The notes beneath the pieces were generated by a model. It made no database searches and was not told the DNA's origin. It saw nothing but the letters and a program-made list of their open reading frames with translations. Both the position numbers and the translations under genes were made by a program. From Hymenobacter yonginensis (GTDB lineage Bacteria > Bacteroidota > Bacteroidia > Cytophagales > Hymenobacteraceae): a stretch of 64,000 bases of DNA. Shown in pieces: positions 8,886 through 20,602 of the stretch. The stretch's first letter is position 1. Each line of letters begins with the position of its first letter. The stretch lies in assembly GCF_027625995.1 (NCBI RefSeq), contig NZ_CP115396.1:3410001-3474000 (forward strand), in the 5' to 3' direction.

Positions 8886-8920
8886 TGCGTTTGGGCCGGG
8901 CCGGTTTGCGGATACTAAAG

Positions 8921-8967
8921 CTAAAAGCTAGTTCCCCTCCTTGGAAAGGAGGGGAACTAGCTTTTTA
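8921..8967. repeat. short form of the CCCCTCCTTGG palindromic element
   Basis: A near-perfect 22-bp hairpin: the left arm runs 8921-8942 and contains AGCTAGTTCCCCTCC; the right arm 8946-8967 is its reverse complement apart from one extra T; the loop is GGA. The same arm sequence borders the longer elements at 10296-10433 and 20420-20548, which hold extra internal sequence. This copy looks like the element reduced to its terminal hairpin. Confidence 0.85.
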
Positions 8968-9017
8968 GCCTTAGCTGGCTGCTCCCGCCACTCACCCTGC
9001 GCCGAGGCTGAACGGCG

Positions 9018-10260: not shown

Positions 10261-10295
10261 GCCTGGAGAAGGGCGCACGTCAGATTAGAGTTAGA

Positions 10296-10433
10296 AGCTA
10301 GTTCCCCTCCTTGGAAAGGAGGGGCTAGGGGTGGTTGATGAACGCTAGAACGATTACTAGAATTTATTTCTAAACACCGTTCAACGCTTGTCAACCACCC
10401 CTAACCCCTCCTTTCCAAGGAGGGGAACTAGCT
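10296..10433. repeat. 138-bp nested palindromic element (long form)
   Basis: Terminal arms of about 38 bases are inverted repeats of each other and each contains its own hairpin CCCCTCCTT-GGA-AAGGAGGGG, followed inward by CTAGGGGTGGTTGA on the left and its complement on the right. The central ~60 bases are AT-richer and unique. The element at 20420-20548 has the same architecture with a different centre. No coding capacity; MITE-like or REP-like. Fills the gap between the ABC terminator and the next minus-strand gene. Confidence 0.85.
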
Positions 10434-10448
10434 TTTTAGCTTGTCGCG

Positions 10449-11219: not shown

Positions 11220-11450
11220 GTGGCAACGCCCGCTGCCGCCCTGACAACGCCCCCCGCCCCGGTGGCAACGCCCGCTGCCCGCGTGACACCTGGCGCTGAC
11301 CGGGTGGCAAGGCCCTCGGCCCCCGTGACAAGGCCCCCTGACCCGGTGGCACCGCCCGCTGCCCCCGTGACAAGGGCCGCTGCCCCGGTGACAACGCCCG
11401 GTGGCGGGCTGACAAGCCGGGCTAACCGGGTGGCATCCGCTGGTAACGGG
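11220..11450. repeat. 21-bp period GC-rich minisatellite, 11 units
   Basis: Eleven contiguous units of exactly 21 bases start at 11220, 11241, 11262 and so on. Each begins GTGGCAA or GTGACAA (or CTGACAA) and continues GCCC/GCTGCCCC-like. In the first eight units GTGGC and GTGAC/CTGAC starts alternate strictly, giving a 42-base higher-order period. Units are diverged by several substitutions but keep length. Both strands read through without stops in one frame because 21 is a multiple of three; I regard it as non-coding. It lies between the divergent coiled-coil gene and the toxin-antitoxin pair. Confidence 0.85.
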
Positions 11451-11589
11451 GGCGCGACGCCCTCAGCCCGCCGCCGCAGAGGCTGTAGCAGCGGCGGGAG
11501 TGGGTGTGGTGGGCGTGAGAGGTGTACCTGAAGCAAGTATTGAGAACTATTTTCTCAATATTCCGCACATTTGAGAAAGCCCTAGACTT

Positions 11590-11811
11590 ATGGACTACTA
11601 CGCACAGATTTCTATCAACCCTGAGGTACGCTTCGGGCGGCCGTGCATTACGGGCACGCGCATCAGCGTGGCCGATGTGCTGGGCTGGCTGGGCAGCGGC
11701 CAGACAATACCGGAGATTCTGGAGGACTTCCCGGAGCTGACTCAGGCGCAGATTCAGGCCTGCCTGCTCTACGCCGCCGACCGGGAGCGGCATCTGCGCA
11801 TTGCCGGATGA
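11590..11811 (+). CDS. DUF433 antitoxin (VapB-like)
   Basis: 73 residues. The whole protein is a DUF433 domain: INPEVRFGRPCITGTRISV (9-27) is the diagnostic motif, followed by VLGWLGSGQTIPEILEDFPELT, a winged-helix type DNA-binding unit. DUF433 proteins are usually antitoxins and autorepressors for a partner PIN-like DUF5615 toxin, which is exactly the next gene: its ATG (11808) overlaps this stop codon by four bases. Cytoplasmic. The pair is therefore probably one operon with co-translation. GC content is like the host genome, in contrast to the AT-rich genes that follow. Confidence 0.9.
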   Translation: MDYYAQISINPEVRFGRPCITGTRISVADVLGWLGSGQTIPEILEDFPELTQAQIQACLLYAADRERHLRIAG

Positions 11812-12155
11812 AGCTGCTGCTGGACGAAAACATTTCCTACCGGGTAGTGGCCCTGCTGGCCGAGGCTTTCCCCGGCTCGGAGCAGGTGCGGCGACTGGGC
11901 CTGCTGGGCAAAACCGACCGCCTCATTTGGGATTATGCCCGTCAGCATGAGTTCGTTATCGTCACCCACGACGACGATTTTGTGGAGCTGAGCACGCTTT
12001 ACGGTGCTCCGCCGAAGGTTCTGTTGCTCCGGGCCGGCAACCTGCCCACCGCCGCCCTGGCCGCGTTGCTGCAGCAGCATCAGGCTACGATAGAAGCTGA
12101 ACTGGCCTCTGGCACTGATACGTATTGCCTGACACTGTATGGGGAGCTACGGTAA
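11808..12155 (+). CDS. DUF5615 PIN-like toxin/nuclease
   Basis: 115 residues. PIN-fold Mut7-C/DUF5615 family: N-terminal KLLLDENIS with Asp6 and Glu7, Asp37 in GKTDRLIWDYA, and the acidic cluster Asp55-Asp57 in VTHDDDFVEL. These are the metal-binding positions expected for an RNase toxin. Overlaps the upstream DUF433 antitoxin by ATGA at 11808-11811. RNA cleavage is inferred from the family; the target is unknown. About 100 bases after the stop, base composition switches to AT-rich. Confidence 0.88.
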   Translation: MKLLLDENISYRVVALLAEAFPGSEQVRRLGLLGKTDRLIWDYARQHEFVIVTHDDDFVELSTLYGAPPKVLLLRAGNLPTAALAALLQQHQATIEAELASGTDTYCLTLYGELR

Positions 12156-12261
12156 TCGTGGCCCTAGCGGTGCAGCCCCATTTTGCTATGCATTTTTTAA
12201 AGCAAGTGTTGCGTTCGTAAACTTGCAATCCTAACTCCCAACATTCTGACTAACTATTAAC

Positions 12262-13065
12262 ATGCAGAAGAAATATTATATTGTAATTGGATCTTTGATT
12301 TTACTGCTTCTTATATCTTGGTTTGAATACCTTAAGACAGTTTATAAAGTAGGTATTCAGTCCACATTAATTAATGTGGGGTTTAATGTCCTGATGGCTA
12401 TTTTAACAGGTTTAATTATTGGTATATATTTTGACATTTCTTCGAGAAAAGAAATATTCAATGATATGTTGAGAAATTTTAATATATCAAAAGAAGTTAT
12501 AAATGCAGGTATAGTAAAATATTATAGTAATTTTTCCGATTTTGATCTTAGAAATTCGGTAGCCAATTGTAGTGATGTTATTATTTATCTTACATATGGC
12601 CAAACAGTATTTAACAATATACGAGACTCATTAACTTCTGTTGCAGGAAAAAAGAACGCTACGATTACTTTGTTTATGTTTCATGAAGACAATCCATTTA
12701 TAGATGGACTCGGCAATCATTGGGGCGCTAATGATCAAAGCTATGCAGCTGCACGCATCAAGCAAAGAGTTGTAGATTCTCAACAAACTTTGTTTACGTA
12801 TTTCTCAGATATGAAAGCAAGGAAAAAGCTAAAGGCGAAAGTTAAAATATATATAATGAAAAGGCATCCTGTTTTCTATTCCTTTTATCGAATGGACGAT
12901 TACATATTATTTTGCCCATCCAAAATATCGGTTGATAAATCAGTAAAGCCTATTGCAATATATGTTAAAGATACATTGGATAAGGGAAGTATTTATAAAA
13001 AGTGTATGGAAGAGATAAAAAGCATTATTGATGATCCTACTTCGTACGAACTAAAGCAATTCTAA
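12262..13065 (+). CDS. two-TM membrane protein of an AT-rich island, unrecognised
   Basis: 267 residues. Two hydrophobic segments near the N-terminus (about 7-22, YIVIGSLILLLLISW, and 33-53, with VLMAILTGLIIGIYF), then a cytoplasmic domain of ~210 residues. I do not recognise the domain; it contains NCSDVIIYLTYGQTVFNNI, ITLFMFHEDNPFI and VKIYIMKRHPVFYSFYRMDDYILF, an alternating beta-alpha pattern such as a Rossmann- or phospholipase-D-like sensor/effector fold. Codons are strongly A/T-ended, unlike all flanking genes. The next gene starts one base after this stop, so the two are almost certainly one operon. Short 2TM-plus-soluble-domain proteins are common in anti-phage systems; that role is inference. 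Confidence 0.85.
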   Translation: MQKKYYIVIGSLILLLLISWFEYLKTVYKVGIQSTLINVGFNVLMAILTGLIIGIYFDISSRKEIFNDMLRNFNISKEVINAGIVKYYSNFSDFDLRNSVANCSDVIIYLTYGQTVFNNIRDSLTSVAGKKNATITLFMFHEDNPFIDGLGNHWGANDQSYAAARIKQRVVDSQQTLFTYFSDMKARKKLKAKVKIYIMKRHPVFYSFYRMDDYILFCPSKISVDKSVKPIAIYVKDTLDKGSIYKKCMEEIKSIIDDPTSYELKQF

Positions 13066-13066
13066 C

Positions 13067-13627
13067 ATGGCTCAGCAAAAGAACATTTGCTTTATAGATT
13101 TTGAAACGACTGGAATAGATATTTACAAAGACGAGCCAATAGAAATTGGAGCTTTAGTTGTAGATGGTGAATTAAATATTATAAATAAATTCTACTCTAG
13201 AATATCCTTGCCTAATAATGCAATAATAGATAATAGTGCTTTTGATATACATGGAATTAAATATTCAGATCTTTACGAATCTCCATCTCAAGAAAATGTT
13301 ATTAATTTATTTTTCGAGTCTATGGGAACTGATTATTGCTTCGCTTCATGGAACATAAGCTTTGATGTTGGATTTTTTAAAAAAATATGTTATTACAATA
13401 ATATGATAGATACATTTAATAAAATAAATTACAGGCATATAGACGTGCAGTCTATTTCTCAGGTTGCAAACAGATTAAATATTTTTAACAAAGAAGTGAA
13501 CTCTTTATCTGAATGTGTTAATTATTTTTCCTTAAAAAGAAAAAAATATCACAATGCATATGAAGATGCTTTGCTTTGCAAAGAGGTTTATGAGAATATT
13601 ATAAATAAAATACAAGCAATGATATAG
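13067..13627 (+). CDS. DEDDh-family 3'-5' exonuclease
   Basis: 186 residues, about the length of a stand-alone DnaQ-like exonuclease. Motifs: Asp11 and Glu13 in FIDFETTG, Asp100 in SWNISFDVGFF, and His162/Asp167 in YHNAYEDALL, i.e. the complete DEDDh catalytic set. Predicted to degrade DNA or RNA from the 3' end with two metal ions. It lacks polymerase or helicase domains. Starts one base after the stop of the 2TM membrane protein and shares its AT-rich composition, so they form a two-gene unit probably acquired horizontally. A perfect inverted repeat spanning the stop acts as terminator for it and for the convergent mfd. Confidence 0.92.
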   Translation: MAQQKNICFIDFETTGIDIYKDEPIEIGALVVDGELNIINKFYSRISLPNNAIIDNSAFDIHGIKYSDLYESPSQENVINLFFESMGTDYCFASWNISFDVGFFKKICYYNNMIDTFNKINYRHIDVQSISQVANRLNIFNKEVNSLSECVNYFSLKRKKYHNAYEDALLCKEVYENIINKIQAMI

Positions 13628-13662
13628 AAGGCAGAGGAGCACAAATACCCCCGCCTTCTATA
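13623..13662. terminator. inverted repeat between exonuclease gene and mfd
   Basis: TATAGAAGGC (13623-13632) and GCCTTCTATA (13653-13662) are a perfect 10-bp inverted repeat with a 20-base loop. The left arm includes the exonuclease stop codon TAG; the right arm is 7 bases from the mfd stop. Probably a bidirectional terminator, or a duplicated boundary of the AT-rich insertion. Confidence 0.6.
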
Positions 13663-13669
13663 CTATTGC

Positions 13670-16600
13670 TTACACCCCCACCGTTTCCTCACTCACCAGC
13701 TCGCTCAGGATCCGCTTGGCGGCCTGGACGCTTTTCACGTCTTCGAAGGAGATGATGAGCTGTTCTTTGCGCTCCTTCATGGAGGCGGAGCGCGGGTGGG
13801 TCTGCACGTAGCTGAGGATGTTGCCGAAGGTGGCGCCCTGGAAGTAGGGCTCGTTGTTGGTGGCCGGGATGAAGCCTTTGAGCAGGTTCTTCTTGAGCGT
13901 GAGCTTTTCGAAGCCGGTCTGGCAGGCCAGCCAGCGCAGGCGCACGATGTCGGCGAGCTGCTCCACCTCCTGGGGCAGCGGCCCGAAGCGGTCCACGATG
14001 CCGGTGAGCAGCTTGCGTAGCTCCTCGGCGTTTTTGGCCCTATCGAGCTTGCTGTAGAGCTGCAGGCGCTCCGACACGCTGCTCACGTAGCGGTCCGGAA
14101 TGAGCACCTGCAAGTCGGTTTCGATGTTGCACTCCTTGGGACGGCCGGTGCCGGCGGCTTCCTGCAGGCGCTGGGTGGGGTCGCCGAGGAACAGGTCGCG
14201 GAACTCGGTTTCCTTGAGCTCCTGCACGGCTTCGTCGAGAATCTGGTGGTAGGTTTCAAAGCCTAGGTCGTTGATGAAGCCCGACTGCTCGCCGCCCAGC
14301 AGGTTGCCCGCGCCCCGGATGTCCAGGTCGCGCATGGCCACGTTGAAGCCCGCGCCCAGGTCCGAGAATTCCTCCAGGGTGCTCAGGCGCTTGCGGGCGT
14401 CGGAGGGCAGGCCGGCCACCGGGGGCGTGAGCAGGTAGCAGTAGGCCTTTTTGTTGGAGCGGCCCACGCGGCCCCGCATCTGGTGCAGGTCGGAGAGGCC
14501 GTGCATGTGGGCGCGGTTGATGAGGATGGTGTTGGCGTTGGCAATGTCGAGGCCCGATTCGATGAGGGTGGTGGCCACCAGCACGTCGTAGTCGCCGTCC
14601 ACGAACTTCATCATACGCTTTTCCAGCAGGTCGCCGTCCATCTGGCCGTGCACGTAGGTCACGCGGGCATCGGGCACGAGGCGCAGAATCATGCTGGCCT
14701 GCTCCTCAATGTCCTTCACGCGGTTGTGCACGAAAAATACCTGCCCGCCCCGCTTCAGCTCCCGCGAAATGGTGTCGCGGATCAGCAGCTCATCGAACAC
14801 GTGCAGCTCCGTCTGCACCGGCTGGCGGTTGGGCGGGGGCGTGGCAATCACGCTCAAGTCGCGGGCTCCCATCAGCGAGAAGTGCAGGGTGCGCGGAATA
14901 GGCGTGGCCGAGAGCGTGAGCGTGTCCACGTTCACCTTGATTTCCTTGAGCTTGTCCTTGGTTTTCACCCCGAACTTCTGCTCCTCGTCAATCACCAAGA
15001 GACCCAGGTCCTTGAACTGCACGTCCTTGTTGGTGAGGCGGTGAGTGCCGATGAGGATGTCGGTTTTGCCGTCGGCCACCCGGCCCAGGGTTTCCTTGAT
15101 CTGCTTGGTGGTTTTGAAGCGGTTCACGTACTCCACCGTCACGGGCAAGTTGCCGAGCCGCTCGCGGAAGGTTTTGTAGTGCTGCATGGCCAGGATGGTG
15201 GTGGGCACCAGCACGGCCACCTGCTTGCCGTCGGCCACGGCCTTGAAGGCGGCCCGGATGGCTACTTCCGTCTTGCCGAAACCCACGTCGCCGCACACGA
15301 GGCGGTCCATGGGGTGGGGCACCTCCATGTCGCGCTTCACGTCCTCGGTGGCCTTGGCCTGGTCGGGGGTGTCCTCGTAGATAAAGCTCGATTCCAGCTC
15401 GGCCTGCATAAAGGAGTCGTGGGCGAAGGCGTGGCCGGGCGCGGTTTTGCGCTTGGCGTACAGCCGGATCAGCTCGGCTGCAATGTCCTTCACCTTTTTC
15501 TTGACCGATTTCTTCTTGTTTTCCCACTCCGGCGAGCCCAGCTTGCTCATGGTGGGCGGCGTGCCCTCGGCCCCGCTGTACTTGGCAATCTTGTGCAGGG
15601 CGTGGATGCTGACGGTCAGCACGTCGTCGTCGCGGTACACCAGCCGGATGGCCTCCTGCAGCCTGTCGTTGATTTCTACCTGGGTGAGGCCGGCGAAGCG
15701 GGCAATGCCGTAGTCCTGGTGTACCACGTAGTCGCCGGGTACCAGGGTGCGCAGCTCTTTTAGCGTGAGGGCCTTTTTCTTGGAGAACTTGCGGGTTTCC
15801 TGGGCCCGGTAGAACCGCTCGAACAGCTGGTGGTCGGTGTAGATAGCCAGGCGCAGCGTCTCGTCGATGAACCCTTCGCGCAGCCCCAGCAGCAGGTGCT
15901 GAAACTGCACGTTGTTGTCCAGCTCGTCGAAGATGGTGCGCAGGCGGTCGGCCTGGCGTACCTGCTCGGCGGCAATGATGTTGGTGTAGCCCTTGGCCTG
16001 GTTGTCGTGCAGGTTCTTCACGATGCGGTTGAAGTCCTTGCCGAAGCTGGGCTGGGGCTTGGCGCTGAACTGGAACTCCTCCGCGCCGGCCTTGAAGTGG
16101 AACCGCTTGCCGAACTCCACTACCGCAAACCCTTCCAGCAGCTTGCGTAGCGTCTTGGCCGACTCAAACAACTCGGCCGGCTTGCTCACCACCTGGGTGC
16201 CGCCCGCCACCGCCAGCAGCTCCTGGAAGCCCGCCTCGGCCTTGTCGAAGTACTCATCCACCACGTCCAGCGTCTGGCGCACGTCCTTGGCCCACACGGC
16301 GGTGTTTTTCGGGATAAACTCCAGAAACGCCTCCCGCGTCTCCTGTAGCAGCTTGGTCTGCACGTTCGGGATGATGCTCACCTGCTGCCGCTTCTCCACC
16401 GACAGCTGGCTTTCCGGGTCAAACGTGCGAATCGTCTCCACCTCATCCCCGAACAGCTCGATGCGGTAGGGCAGCTCGTTGGCGTAGGAGAAGATGTCCA
16501 CGATGCCCCCGCGCACGGCAAACTGGCCGGCCTCGTACACAAAGTCGCTCCGCTCGAAGTCGTACTCCGCCAGCATGTCGCTCACGAAGTTCACGTCCAG

Positions 16601-17194
16601 CTTGTCGCCCACCTTCACCAGAAAGGTGTTGGCCACGAGGCTTTTCTTGTTGATAACCTTCTCGAACAGGGCCTCGGGGTATGTCACGATGAGCACACCG
16701 GCGGTTTCTTTGGCGCTGGCCTTTCCGCGCTTCTTGCCCTGGCCGTCGGTTTCTGCCGCGTCGGCCGCGTCGTCGGCGGCCTGTTCGGCGGTGGTTTTGG
16801 GGCCGCGGTGCGAGTTCAGCTTGTTCAGCACCTCGGCCCGCATCAGCACGTTGGCGTTTTCCGTCTCGTCGAAGCTGTAAGGGCGCTTGTAGGAGGTGGG
16901 GAACAGGAGAGGCTCCTCGTCGGGAAGCAGGTGCTGCAGGTCGGCCAGGAAGTAGGCGGCCTCGTCCCGGTCGTGGAGGATGAACAGGTGGTGCTGATCG
17001 GGATACTCCTGGTGGACGGCGGCGGCCAGCACGGCATCCTGGGAGCCTACGAGGCCGCGCAGGTGCAGGCGCACGGGCGCTTCGGCCTTGTCGGCGGGCC
17101 GCAGGGAGCGACGGGTGGCGGGGTTCAGGCGCGCGCCCAGCGTCATGCCGGTGGGGTCGAGGGCGTAGAGCTTCAGTAAATCGGTGACCTTCAA
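13670..17194 (-). CDS. mfd: transcription-repair coupling factor
   Basis: Displaces stalled RNA polymerase at lesions and recruits UvrA. 1174 residues, normal. In order: UvrB-like N-terminal module (SYKRPYSFDETEN), a charged insert around residues 125-160 rich in Ala/Asp/Lys, the RNA-polymerase-interaction domain PGDYVVHQDYGIARF (about 486), helicase with Walker A GDVGFGKTE (about 632), DEEQ box (about 733), motif III LSATPIPRTL, motif V/VI with MRGRVGRSNKKAY, and the C-terminal D7 regulatory domain. The start is a TTG at 17194 with MKVTDLLKLY; a perfect -7 box ends 24 bases upstream, which supports it over the internal ATG at residue 17. Confidence 0.97.
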   Translation of the reverse strand: MKVTDLLKLYALDPTGMTLGARLNPATRRSLRPADKAEAPVRLHLRGLVGSQDAVLAAAVHQEYPDQHHLFILHDRDEAAYFLADLQHLLPDEEPLLFPTSYKRPYSFDETENANVLMRAEVLNKLNSHRGPKTTAEQAADDAADAAETDGQGKKRGKASAKETAGVLIVTYPEALFEKVINKKSLVANTFLVKVGDKLDVNFVSDMLAEYDFERSDFVYEAGQFAVRGGIVDIFSYANELPYRIELFGDEVETIRTFDPESQLSVEKRQQVSIIPNVQTKLLQETREAFLEFIPKNTAVWAKDVRQTLDVVDEYFDKAEAGFQELLAVAGGTQVVSKPAELFESAKTLRKLLEGFAVVEFGKRFHFKAGAEEFQFSAKPQPSFGKDFNRIVKNLHDNQAKGYTNIIAAEQVRQADRLRTIFDELDNNVQFQHLLLGLREGFIDETLRLAIYTDHQLFERFYRAQETRKFSKKKALTLKELRTLVPGDYVVHQDYGIARFAGLTQVEINDRLQEAIRLVYRDDDVLTVSIHALHKIAKYSGAEGTPPTMSKLGSPEWENKKKSVKKKVKDIAAELIRLYAKRKTAPGHAFAHDSFMQAELESSFIYEDTPDQAKATEDVKRDMEVPHPMDRLVCGDVGFGKTEVAIRAAFKAVADGKQVAVLVPTTILAMQHYKTFRERLGNLPVTVEYVNRFKTTKQIKETLGRVADGKTDILIGTHRLTNKDVQFKDLGLLVIDEEQKFGVKTKDKLKEIKVNVDTLTLSATPIPRTLHFSLMGARDLSVIATPPPNRQPVQTELHVFDELLIRDTISRELKRGGQVFFVHNRVKDIEEQASMILRLVPDARVTYVHGQMDGDLLEKRMMKFVDGDYDVLVATTLIESGLDIANANTILINRAHMHGLSDLHQMRGRVGRSNKKAYCYLLTPPVAGLPSDARKRLSTLEEFSDLGAGFNVAMRDLDIRGAGNLLGGEQSGFINDLGFETYHQILDEAVQELKETEFRDLFLGDPTQRLQEAAGTGRPKECNIETDLQVLIPDRYVSSVSERLQLYSKLDRAKNAEELRKLLTGIVDRFGPLPQEVEQLADIVRLRWLACQTGFEKLTLKKNLLKGFIPATNNEPYFQGATFGNILSYVQTHPRSASMKERKEQLIISFEDVKSVQAAKRILSELVSEETVGV

Positions 17195-20419: not shown

Positions 20420-20548
20420 CTAGTTCCCCTCCTTGGAAAGGAGGGGTTAGGGATGGTTGATGGACGCCAGAACGATGACTAGCTCTAGTATTGTTCTAGC
20501 GCGCGTCAACCACCCCTAGCCCCTCCTTTCCAAGGAGGGGAATTAGCT
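20420..20548. repeat. 129-bp nested palindromic element (long form)
   Basis: Second long copy of the element at 10296-10433: left arm CTAGTTCCCCTCCTTGG... continuing GTTAGGGATGGTTGA, right arm TCAACCACCCCTAGC... ending GGGGAATTAGCT. The centre differs from the first copy but both contain short ctag motifs. Lies between two convergent genes. Confidence 0.85.
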
Positions 20549-20602
20549 TTTAATCCTAACCCTTATTCTCCGCAACTTGGGTACATTATCAATCAATACT
20601 CC

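Follow-up and report, generated by a model that had tools for sequence, protein, structure and literature searches.

The window analysed here is a 64,000-nucleotide stretch of the Hymenobacter yonginensis genome (contig NZ_CP115396.1, positions 3,410,001 to 3,474,000). It contains a pair of AT-rich genes, flanked on one side by DUF433 and DUF5615 genes and on the other by a gene that we named by eye as mfd-like. The features of the region, in window coordinates, are as follows.

11590..11811, + strand: left neighbour with a DUF433 domain, antitoxin-like and G+C-rich (Pfam E 3.3e-25, GC3 0.78)
11808..12155, + strand: left neighbour with a DUF5615 domain, PIN-like (Pfam E 3.9e-34, GC3 0.72)
12262..13065, + strand: gene 1, a 267-aa protein with two N-terminal membrane helices and a soluble domain (ORF, hydropathy)
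12277..12333, + strand: membrane segment 1 of gene 1, residues 6-24 (Kyte-Doolittle 19-mer, mean 2.04)
12376..12432, + strand: membrane segment 2 of gene 1, residues 39-57 (Kyte-Doolittle 19-mer, mean 2.13)
12511..13062, + strand: soluble domain of gene 1 with a predicted PLD fold, residues 84-267, HxKxxxxD absent
13067..13627, + strand: gene 2, a predicted 186-aa stand-alone DEDDh exonuclease (ORF, Pfam RNase_T, catalytic residues)
13097..13105, + strand: D11 and E13 codons of gene 2, Exo I motif DFE (alignment of six members)
13364..13366, + strand: D100 codon of gene 2, Exo II (alignment of six members)
13550..13567, + strand: H162 to D167 codons of gene 2, Exo III, HNAYED (alignment of six members)
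13614..13671, + strand: single hairpin, probable terminator between convergent genes (repeat search, RNA folding)
13670..17194, - strand: right neighbour, mfd-like gene (named by eye), conserved edge of a variable slot (ORF, 3'-end matches)

A sequence-only reading had described two genes one base apart, rich in A/T-ended codons, with about 30% G+C between flanks of more than 60%. The ORF list confirms the arrangement, with both genes on the forward strand and a single nucleotide between them; spacing this tight suggests coupled production of the two proteins. The composition holds as well: the G+C content of the pair is 28.8%, whereas sliding 1366-bp windows have a median of 62.4%, and the lowest values of the whole 64 kb come from the windows that start at 12151-12401, over the pair. 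GC3 is 0.26 in gene 1 and 0.22 in gene 2, against 0.90 in the mfd-like gene. With GC3 values of 0.78 and 0.72, the DUF433 and DUF5615 neighbours lie outside the AT-rich unit.

The perfect inverted repeat that the same reading had placed around the unit was not borne out. A single imperfect repeat of 24 nt lies at the 3' end, with arms at 13614-13637 and 13648-13671, 83% complementarity, a 10-nt loop and a perfect 10-bp core read from the sequence; a repeat search of 12100-13760 found no matching arm on the 5' side. As RNA, the hairpin folds at -25.2 kcal/mol (z -8.6), overlapping the exonuclease stop codon and extending to the mfd stop codon. Of five close relatives, G001, G007 and G008 carry different hairpins at the same place, beside other cargo. 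The hairpin is most likely a terminator between convergent genes. A role as the end of a mobile element was rejected, given its single copy, its position at the 3' end only and the other hairpins beside other cargo.

Gene 1 has its best hydrophobic 19-mers at residues 6-24 and 39-57, in agreement with the two N-terminal membrane segments noted earlier. The charge distribution, positive at the N-terminus and again past helix 2, points to a cytoplasmic soluble domain. No known housekeeping family, nor any other, could be assigned to the protein in Pfam, NCBIfam, PADLOC or PHROGs (best E 0.015), and the other gene-1 members gave sub-threshold matches only against Pfam. Comparison with solved structures by sequence alone remained at chance level, and a search of BFVD returned nothing at E≤0.001. 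None of the libraries used thus has a name for this membrane protein family.

The description of the soluble domain as unrecognised stands for family matches by sequence, but not for its predicted fold. In two AlphaFold models, built on the same four sequences, the soluble part adopts a phospholipase-D (PLD)-like fold. Its nearest match is 2f5t, titled as the sugar binding domain of TrmB, although Foldseek TM-scores were low, at about 0.3. The C-terminal domains of TrmB and TrmBL2 belong to archaeal DNA-binding regulators that, unlike gene 1, lack membrane helices, with 8-16% identity over the aligned part. The catalytic motif HxKxxxxD is missing in all six gene-1 members; three of them show HxK alone at residue 224, the D being absent. 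From the strand pattern and the numbering of the Nuc enzyme, we take the positions of the canonical PLD residues to be F205, S207 and D212 of gene 1. Since the modelled fold lacks HxKxxxxD in every member, the domain probably acts in binding or as a scaffold.

Gene 2 matches Pfam RNase_T at E 1.4e-23 (84.7 bits, cut-off 24), and no NCBIfam model passed its cut-off among the 25 listed. As had been proposed, it is a stand-alone protein with all five catalytic residues: D11, E13, D100, H162 and D167 are invariant in the six aligned members. A profile of these members matched the PolC exonuclease 2p1j best among structures (3.6e-17), with Pol III epsilon, DnaQ and Cas-associated DEDDh chains next in the ranking; its best structural relatives are enzymes of replication proofreading and RNA turnover. 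We therefore annotate gene 2 as a putative DEDDh exonuclease (RNase_T/DnaQ-like), for which 3'-5' polarity is predicted.

Few genomes carry the pair, and its two genes are closely linked. Gene 1 was found in 3 of 149 relatives (G075, G046 and G014) at 43-48% identity, with the exonuclease gene next to it in each. A first scan of genome contigs with a single gene-1 sequence confirmed none of 21 candidates, and a scan with a four-row alignment added H. artigasi as a carrier (63% identity). In a sample of 395 genomes from the phylum, six matched at E≤0.01 and only G362 was kept, a genome of the same class and a different family, with gene 1 at E 8.9e-27 and the exonuclease next to it. The other five matches (E 0.0016-0.0058) were dropped: four were fragments with stops, and one was a 41-residue match in a 485-aa frame. 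Later samples gave no new member (1/246, 0/241, 1/299 and 1/395), every positive being G362 again.

Whether the two genes co-occur in other genomes had been raised beforehand, and they do. The exonuclease gene lies next to gene 1, in the same order, in all six gene-1 loci (the window, the four other Hymenobacter loci and G362), with a stop/start overlap in three of them and gaps of 1 nt in the window, 2 in G362 and 5 in H. artigasi. In the reverse direction, the exonuclease profile at E≤1e-20 matched 2 of 99 relatives, G014 and G046, both of which carry gene 1; G075 was outside this sample. Pairwise identities of the two proteins covary (r 0.85), although the 15 pairs share members and are hence not independent. 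No tblastn match to gene 1 was found in plasmids or phages at E 1e-5, none to the G362 gene-1 protein in plasmids at 1e-3, and two scans of viral contigs yielded no confirmed relative.

The distant copy in G362 lies in what PADLOC labels identify as a phosphorothioation defence locus. The genes run SspB (DUF4007, E 9.2e-107), SspC (E 0), SspD (E 1.7e-85), gene 1 and exonuclease. With the ATG taken as its start codon, gene 1 begins 17 nt beyond the end of sspD. Convergent to this run are two short genes without a PADLOC match, a PbeC-like ATPase (2.9e-26), a PbeA-like helicase (E 0) and a cysteine desulfurase (SspA 3.1e-149, DndA 8.2e-145). The window pair has no adjacent sspBCD, its neighbours being DUF433/DUF5615 and mfd. 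In the four pair-bearing Hymenobacter genomes searched for SspD, matches were weak in two (40.6 and 38.7 bits) and absent in two, against 185 bits in G362, while the same family matched in 7 of 14 control genomes. The association with SspABCD systems is thus seen in one of six copies, whereas the Hymenobacter pairs have no adjacent Ssp genes and the four genomes searched no convincing SspD. As to recurrence in distant genomes near defence genes, which had been suggested as a check, one distant copy is in a defence locus, but the other copies are all from Hymenobacter, and the four outside the window have no recognised defence gene directly adjacent among the genes scanned. In the main text of the SspFGH paper (PMC8092258), neither 'exonuclease' nor 'transmembrane' is mentioned.

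In Hymenobacter, the pair of the window occupies a variable slot beside mfd. The mfd 3' end was matched in 55 of 59 relatives, and in close relatives the matching DNA stops at the mfd stop codon. In the five closest (96-97% identical at the mfd 3' end), the match resumes at window 11473-11851, and the interval up to about 13670 is filled with different DNA in each, of 32-37% G+C; this cargo is recognisably of defence type in four of the five. Across 30 mfd loci of relatives, 14 are AT-rich, with a 1500-bp flank of at most 36% G+C, a cut-off picked after the data had been seen. All 14 are among the 21 loci with an mfd end at least 84% identical, and none is among the other nine. The slot of this Hymenobacter clade (window 11473-13670; L048-L052 and L059-L067) thus appears as a site where AT-rich cargo differs from one close relative to the next.

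Cargo was scanned in 13 of the 14 AT-rich slots, G010 being left out and G011 represented by one of its three genes. Conflict-type families were present in eight, and five had no clear conflict family. The matches comprise AAA_15 in G001 (frames split), HEC-03A and B in G003 (2.9e-28 and 6.4e-135), NACHT in G007 (3.7e-7), AAA_15 with a sub-threshold OLD-type TOPRIM in G008, GmrSD_N and RiboL-PSP HEPN in G031, AAA_15 with an OLD match in G024, AAA_15 with PDC-M31A/B in G032 and AAA_15 with an OLD-type TOPRIM in G027. G017 carries a HATPase domain with no PADLOC match, and no family was matched by the cargo of G014, G018 and G028 or by the single scanned G011 gene. The mfd slot of G014 is filled by this other cargo, and the pair is carried elsewhere in that genome.

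Several further observations concern this slot. Unrecognised cargo genes include L051:16102-17532 (477 aa), L062:3569-5947 (793 aa) and L066:148-1467 (440 aa), and an unrecognised three-gene set lies at L067:3908-5872. In 3 of 59 relatives (G002, G004 and G036), a second, partial mfd 3' end is present about 1-2 kb away on the slot side, in the same orientation, as if the cargo brought a copy of the gene end; a search of the window for such a copy beyond the pair gave none. In G001 (L048), the DUF433 end and the DUF5615 start are kept, and DUF5615 breaks off where different cargo begins. G+C-rich tandem-like repeats are located at window 11220-11435, at the left edge of the slot, with similar ones there in several relatives. 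A dispersed repeat of about 140-158 nt occurs at window 10285-10442 and 20420-20553, with a partial copy at 8915-8969, and also in relatives (e.g. L051 and L006); it folds into a long hairpin with almost perfect pairing (-108 kcal/mol as RNA) and looks like a small non-autonomous element.

The other Hymenobacter copies are inserted elsewhere. In G075, G046 and G014, the pair adjoins a methylmalonyl-CoA-mutase-like gene (named by eye), with the G014 contig ending there. The flank of this gene is also variable, with at most 42% G+C downstream in 11 of 29 usable loci; L074, where the contig ends, was left out of these counts. Three of four cargo proteins scanned at this site matched AAA-type PADLOC models, and part of the cargo is not defence-like in appearance. 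In G075, G046, G014 and relatives (L068-L097), the mutase-gene flank forms a second site of variable content that is often AT-rich; AAA ATPases occur there, along with ORFs that resemble Fic and HNH by eye. The H. artigasi copy is flanked by ABC-transporter and barstar-like ORFs, both named by eye. The low G+C content, the presence in 3 of 149 relatives, the different sites and the variable-cargo slots make the horizontal acquisition proposed earlier well supported.

When PADLOC was run, as a control, on six ordinary genes next to the window slot, three matched at E≤1e-5 (1.3e-26, 5.9e-10 and 6.1e-6). Taken alone, one PADLOC match of an ATPase or helicase thus counts for little, and the argument for defence is carried by the two-gene matches (HEC-03A/B and PDC-M31A/B) and the SspBCD run. 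The association with defence loci thus consists of one copy in an SspBCD-Pbe-like locus and of variable slots rich in conflict genes, where single PADLOC matches are weakly specific.

PADLOC includes models of Kiwa, and none of them was among the matches at E≤1 (one family for gene 1, six for gene 2). Kiwa, as outlined in PMC12904381, consists of an inner-membrane protein, KwaA, that senses infection and brings KwaB to the injection site, where KwaB binds DNA without cleaving it. The proposed likeness is that of two components, a membrane protein and a DNA-acting partner; the pair differs in that its partner is a predicted DEDDh exonuclease and its membrane protein has two helices and a PLD-like domain. 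SNIPE is described in PMC13190303 as a cytoplasmic nuclease that is anchored in the membrane and attacks phage DNA on entry, with self-damage prevented by location, as we propose for the pair. It combines DUF4041 and a GIY-YIG nuclease in a single protein (PMC13190303), whereas here there are two proteins, neither with DUF4041 or GIY-YIG in a Pfam scan at E≤1. Together with Zorya, these systems provide precedents for a membrane sensor with a DNA-acting partner. The diDNases of PMC11706625 resemble gene 2 in being DEDD nucleases that stand alone, and they are encoded in genomic islands close to defence genes. They differ as NrnC homologues of Actinomycetes and Clostridia, with no membrane partner in the passages that describe them and the word 'transmembrane' absent from the main text (PMC11706625). 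The main text of PMC10853773 makes no mention of 'DEDD', '2TM' or 'PLD'. Among the matches listed from the open-access literature, there was no published pair of a membrane protein with a DEDDh exonuclease, no phosphorothioate-linked one and no account of the mfd slot. By analogy, the pair may function like known membrane-plus-nuclease systems, although it matches none of those tested in sequence.

Considering these data, defence is the likely general function of the pair, and the division of labour first proposed, with one protein sensing and the other degrading nucleic acid, is plausible. The particular mechanism that we favour, at a little less than an even chance, is that of a membrane anchor or sensor which recruits or licenses an exonuclease against incoming nucleic acid. 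The pair would be a compact two-protein immune module acquired by horizontal transfer. Gene 1 would yield an inner-membrane protein anchored by its two helices, whose cytoplasmic PLD-like domain, lacking the catalytic motif, would bind a ligand, which could be nucleic acid, a nucleotide or a cue from phage or membrane. The product of gene 2, made in tight translational coupling, would be the 3'-5' exonuclease, which gene 1 would recruit or license at the membrane. Incoming phage or plasmid nucleic acid would then be trimmed, with the chromosome spared through location. What is observed is the constant pairing, gene order and close spacing, the hydrophobic segments, the missing HxKxxxxD, the DEDDh residues, the sporadic distribution and the location in variable and defence loci, with the PLD-like fold coming from models; topology, physical interaction, substrate, polarity, trigger and anti-phage effect are inferred. 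Against this reading stand the facts that only the G362 pair lies beside an established defence system, that PADLOC matches are weakly specific, that five of 13 mfd-slot cargos and part of the mutase-site cargo show no clear sign of defence, that the exonuclease is structurally closest to proofreading and RNA-turnover enzymes, and that the TM-scores are low and both models share their input sequences.

The main rival, which we regard as unlikely, is that gene 1 is a ligand-controlled effector that disrupts the membrane and stops or kills the infected cell, with the PLD-like pocket as ligand sensor and the exonuclease either removing an oligonucleotide ligand (silencing) or making one from phage nucleic acid (arming). 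The architecture of gene 1, with two short membrane helices ahead of a domain that is modelled as nearest to a ligand-binding regulator fold (2f5t, TrmB), would suit such a role, as would sugar binding by the equivalent TrmB domain and the fact that dinucleotides are substrates of small DEDD nucleases, as PMC11706625 reports. The two-gene unit, however, contains no nucleotide cyclase or other signal maker, and pore formation and toxicity are purely hypothetical for gene 1. It is unlikely that the pair is a non-defence cassette (toxin-antitoxin-like, or for stress or DNA uptake and repair) that merely shares slots with defence genes. The housekeeping relatives of the exonuclease, the unrecognised genes in the slots, the cargo without a defence look at the mutase site and the directly adjoining DUF433/DUF5615 genes are consistent with this reading, but one copy lies within an SspBCD locus, OLD-, NACHT-, GmrSD-, HEPN- and HEC-03-type genes recur in the mfd slot, and the distribution of the pair is sporadic.

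Phosphorothioate links resist exonucleases. The position of the G362 copy directly behind sspBCD would fit an accessory role in which the exonuclease degrades unmodified DNA and is halted by Ssp-made links in host DNA; with SspD weak or absent in the four pair-bearing Hymenobacter genomes, this phosphorothioate-dependent role is disfavoured, and we consider it very improbable. A combined possibility, which we judge quite improbable, is that the exonuclease cuts the ends of phage nucleic acid to small products that gate the dead-PLD membrane protein, the two forming one sensing device, and that the cassette was co-opted by the phosphorothioate system as an extra effector. If so, nuclease and executioner would be linked through a degradation product rather than a cyclase-made signal.

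If the favoured reading of a membrane protein that recruits or licenses an exonuclease is true, a very small membrane-plus-exonuclease system would join Kiwa, Zorya and SNIPE, in which self and non-self are told apart by location, and a family of dead PLD-fold membrane proteins would gain a possible immune role. The mfd slot of Hymenobacter, in turn, looks like a landing site that can be used repeatedly, and it could be mined for more defence genes not yet recognised.
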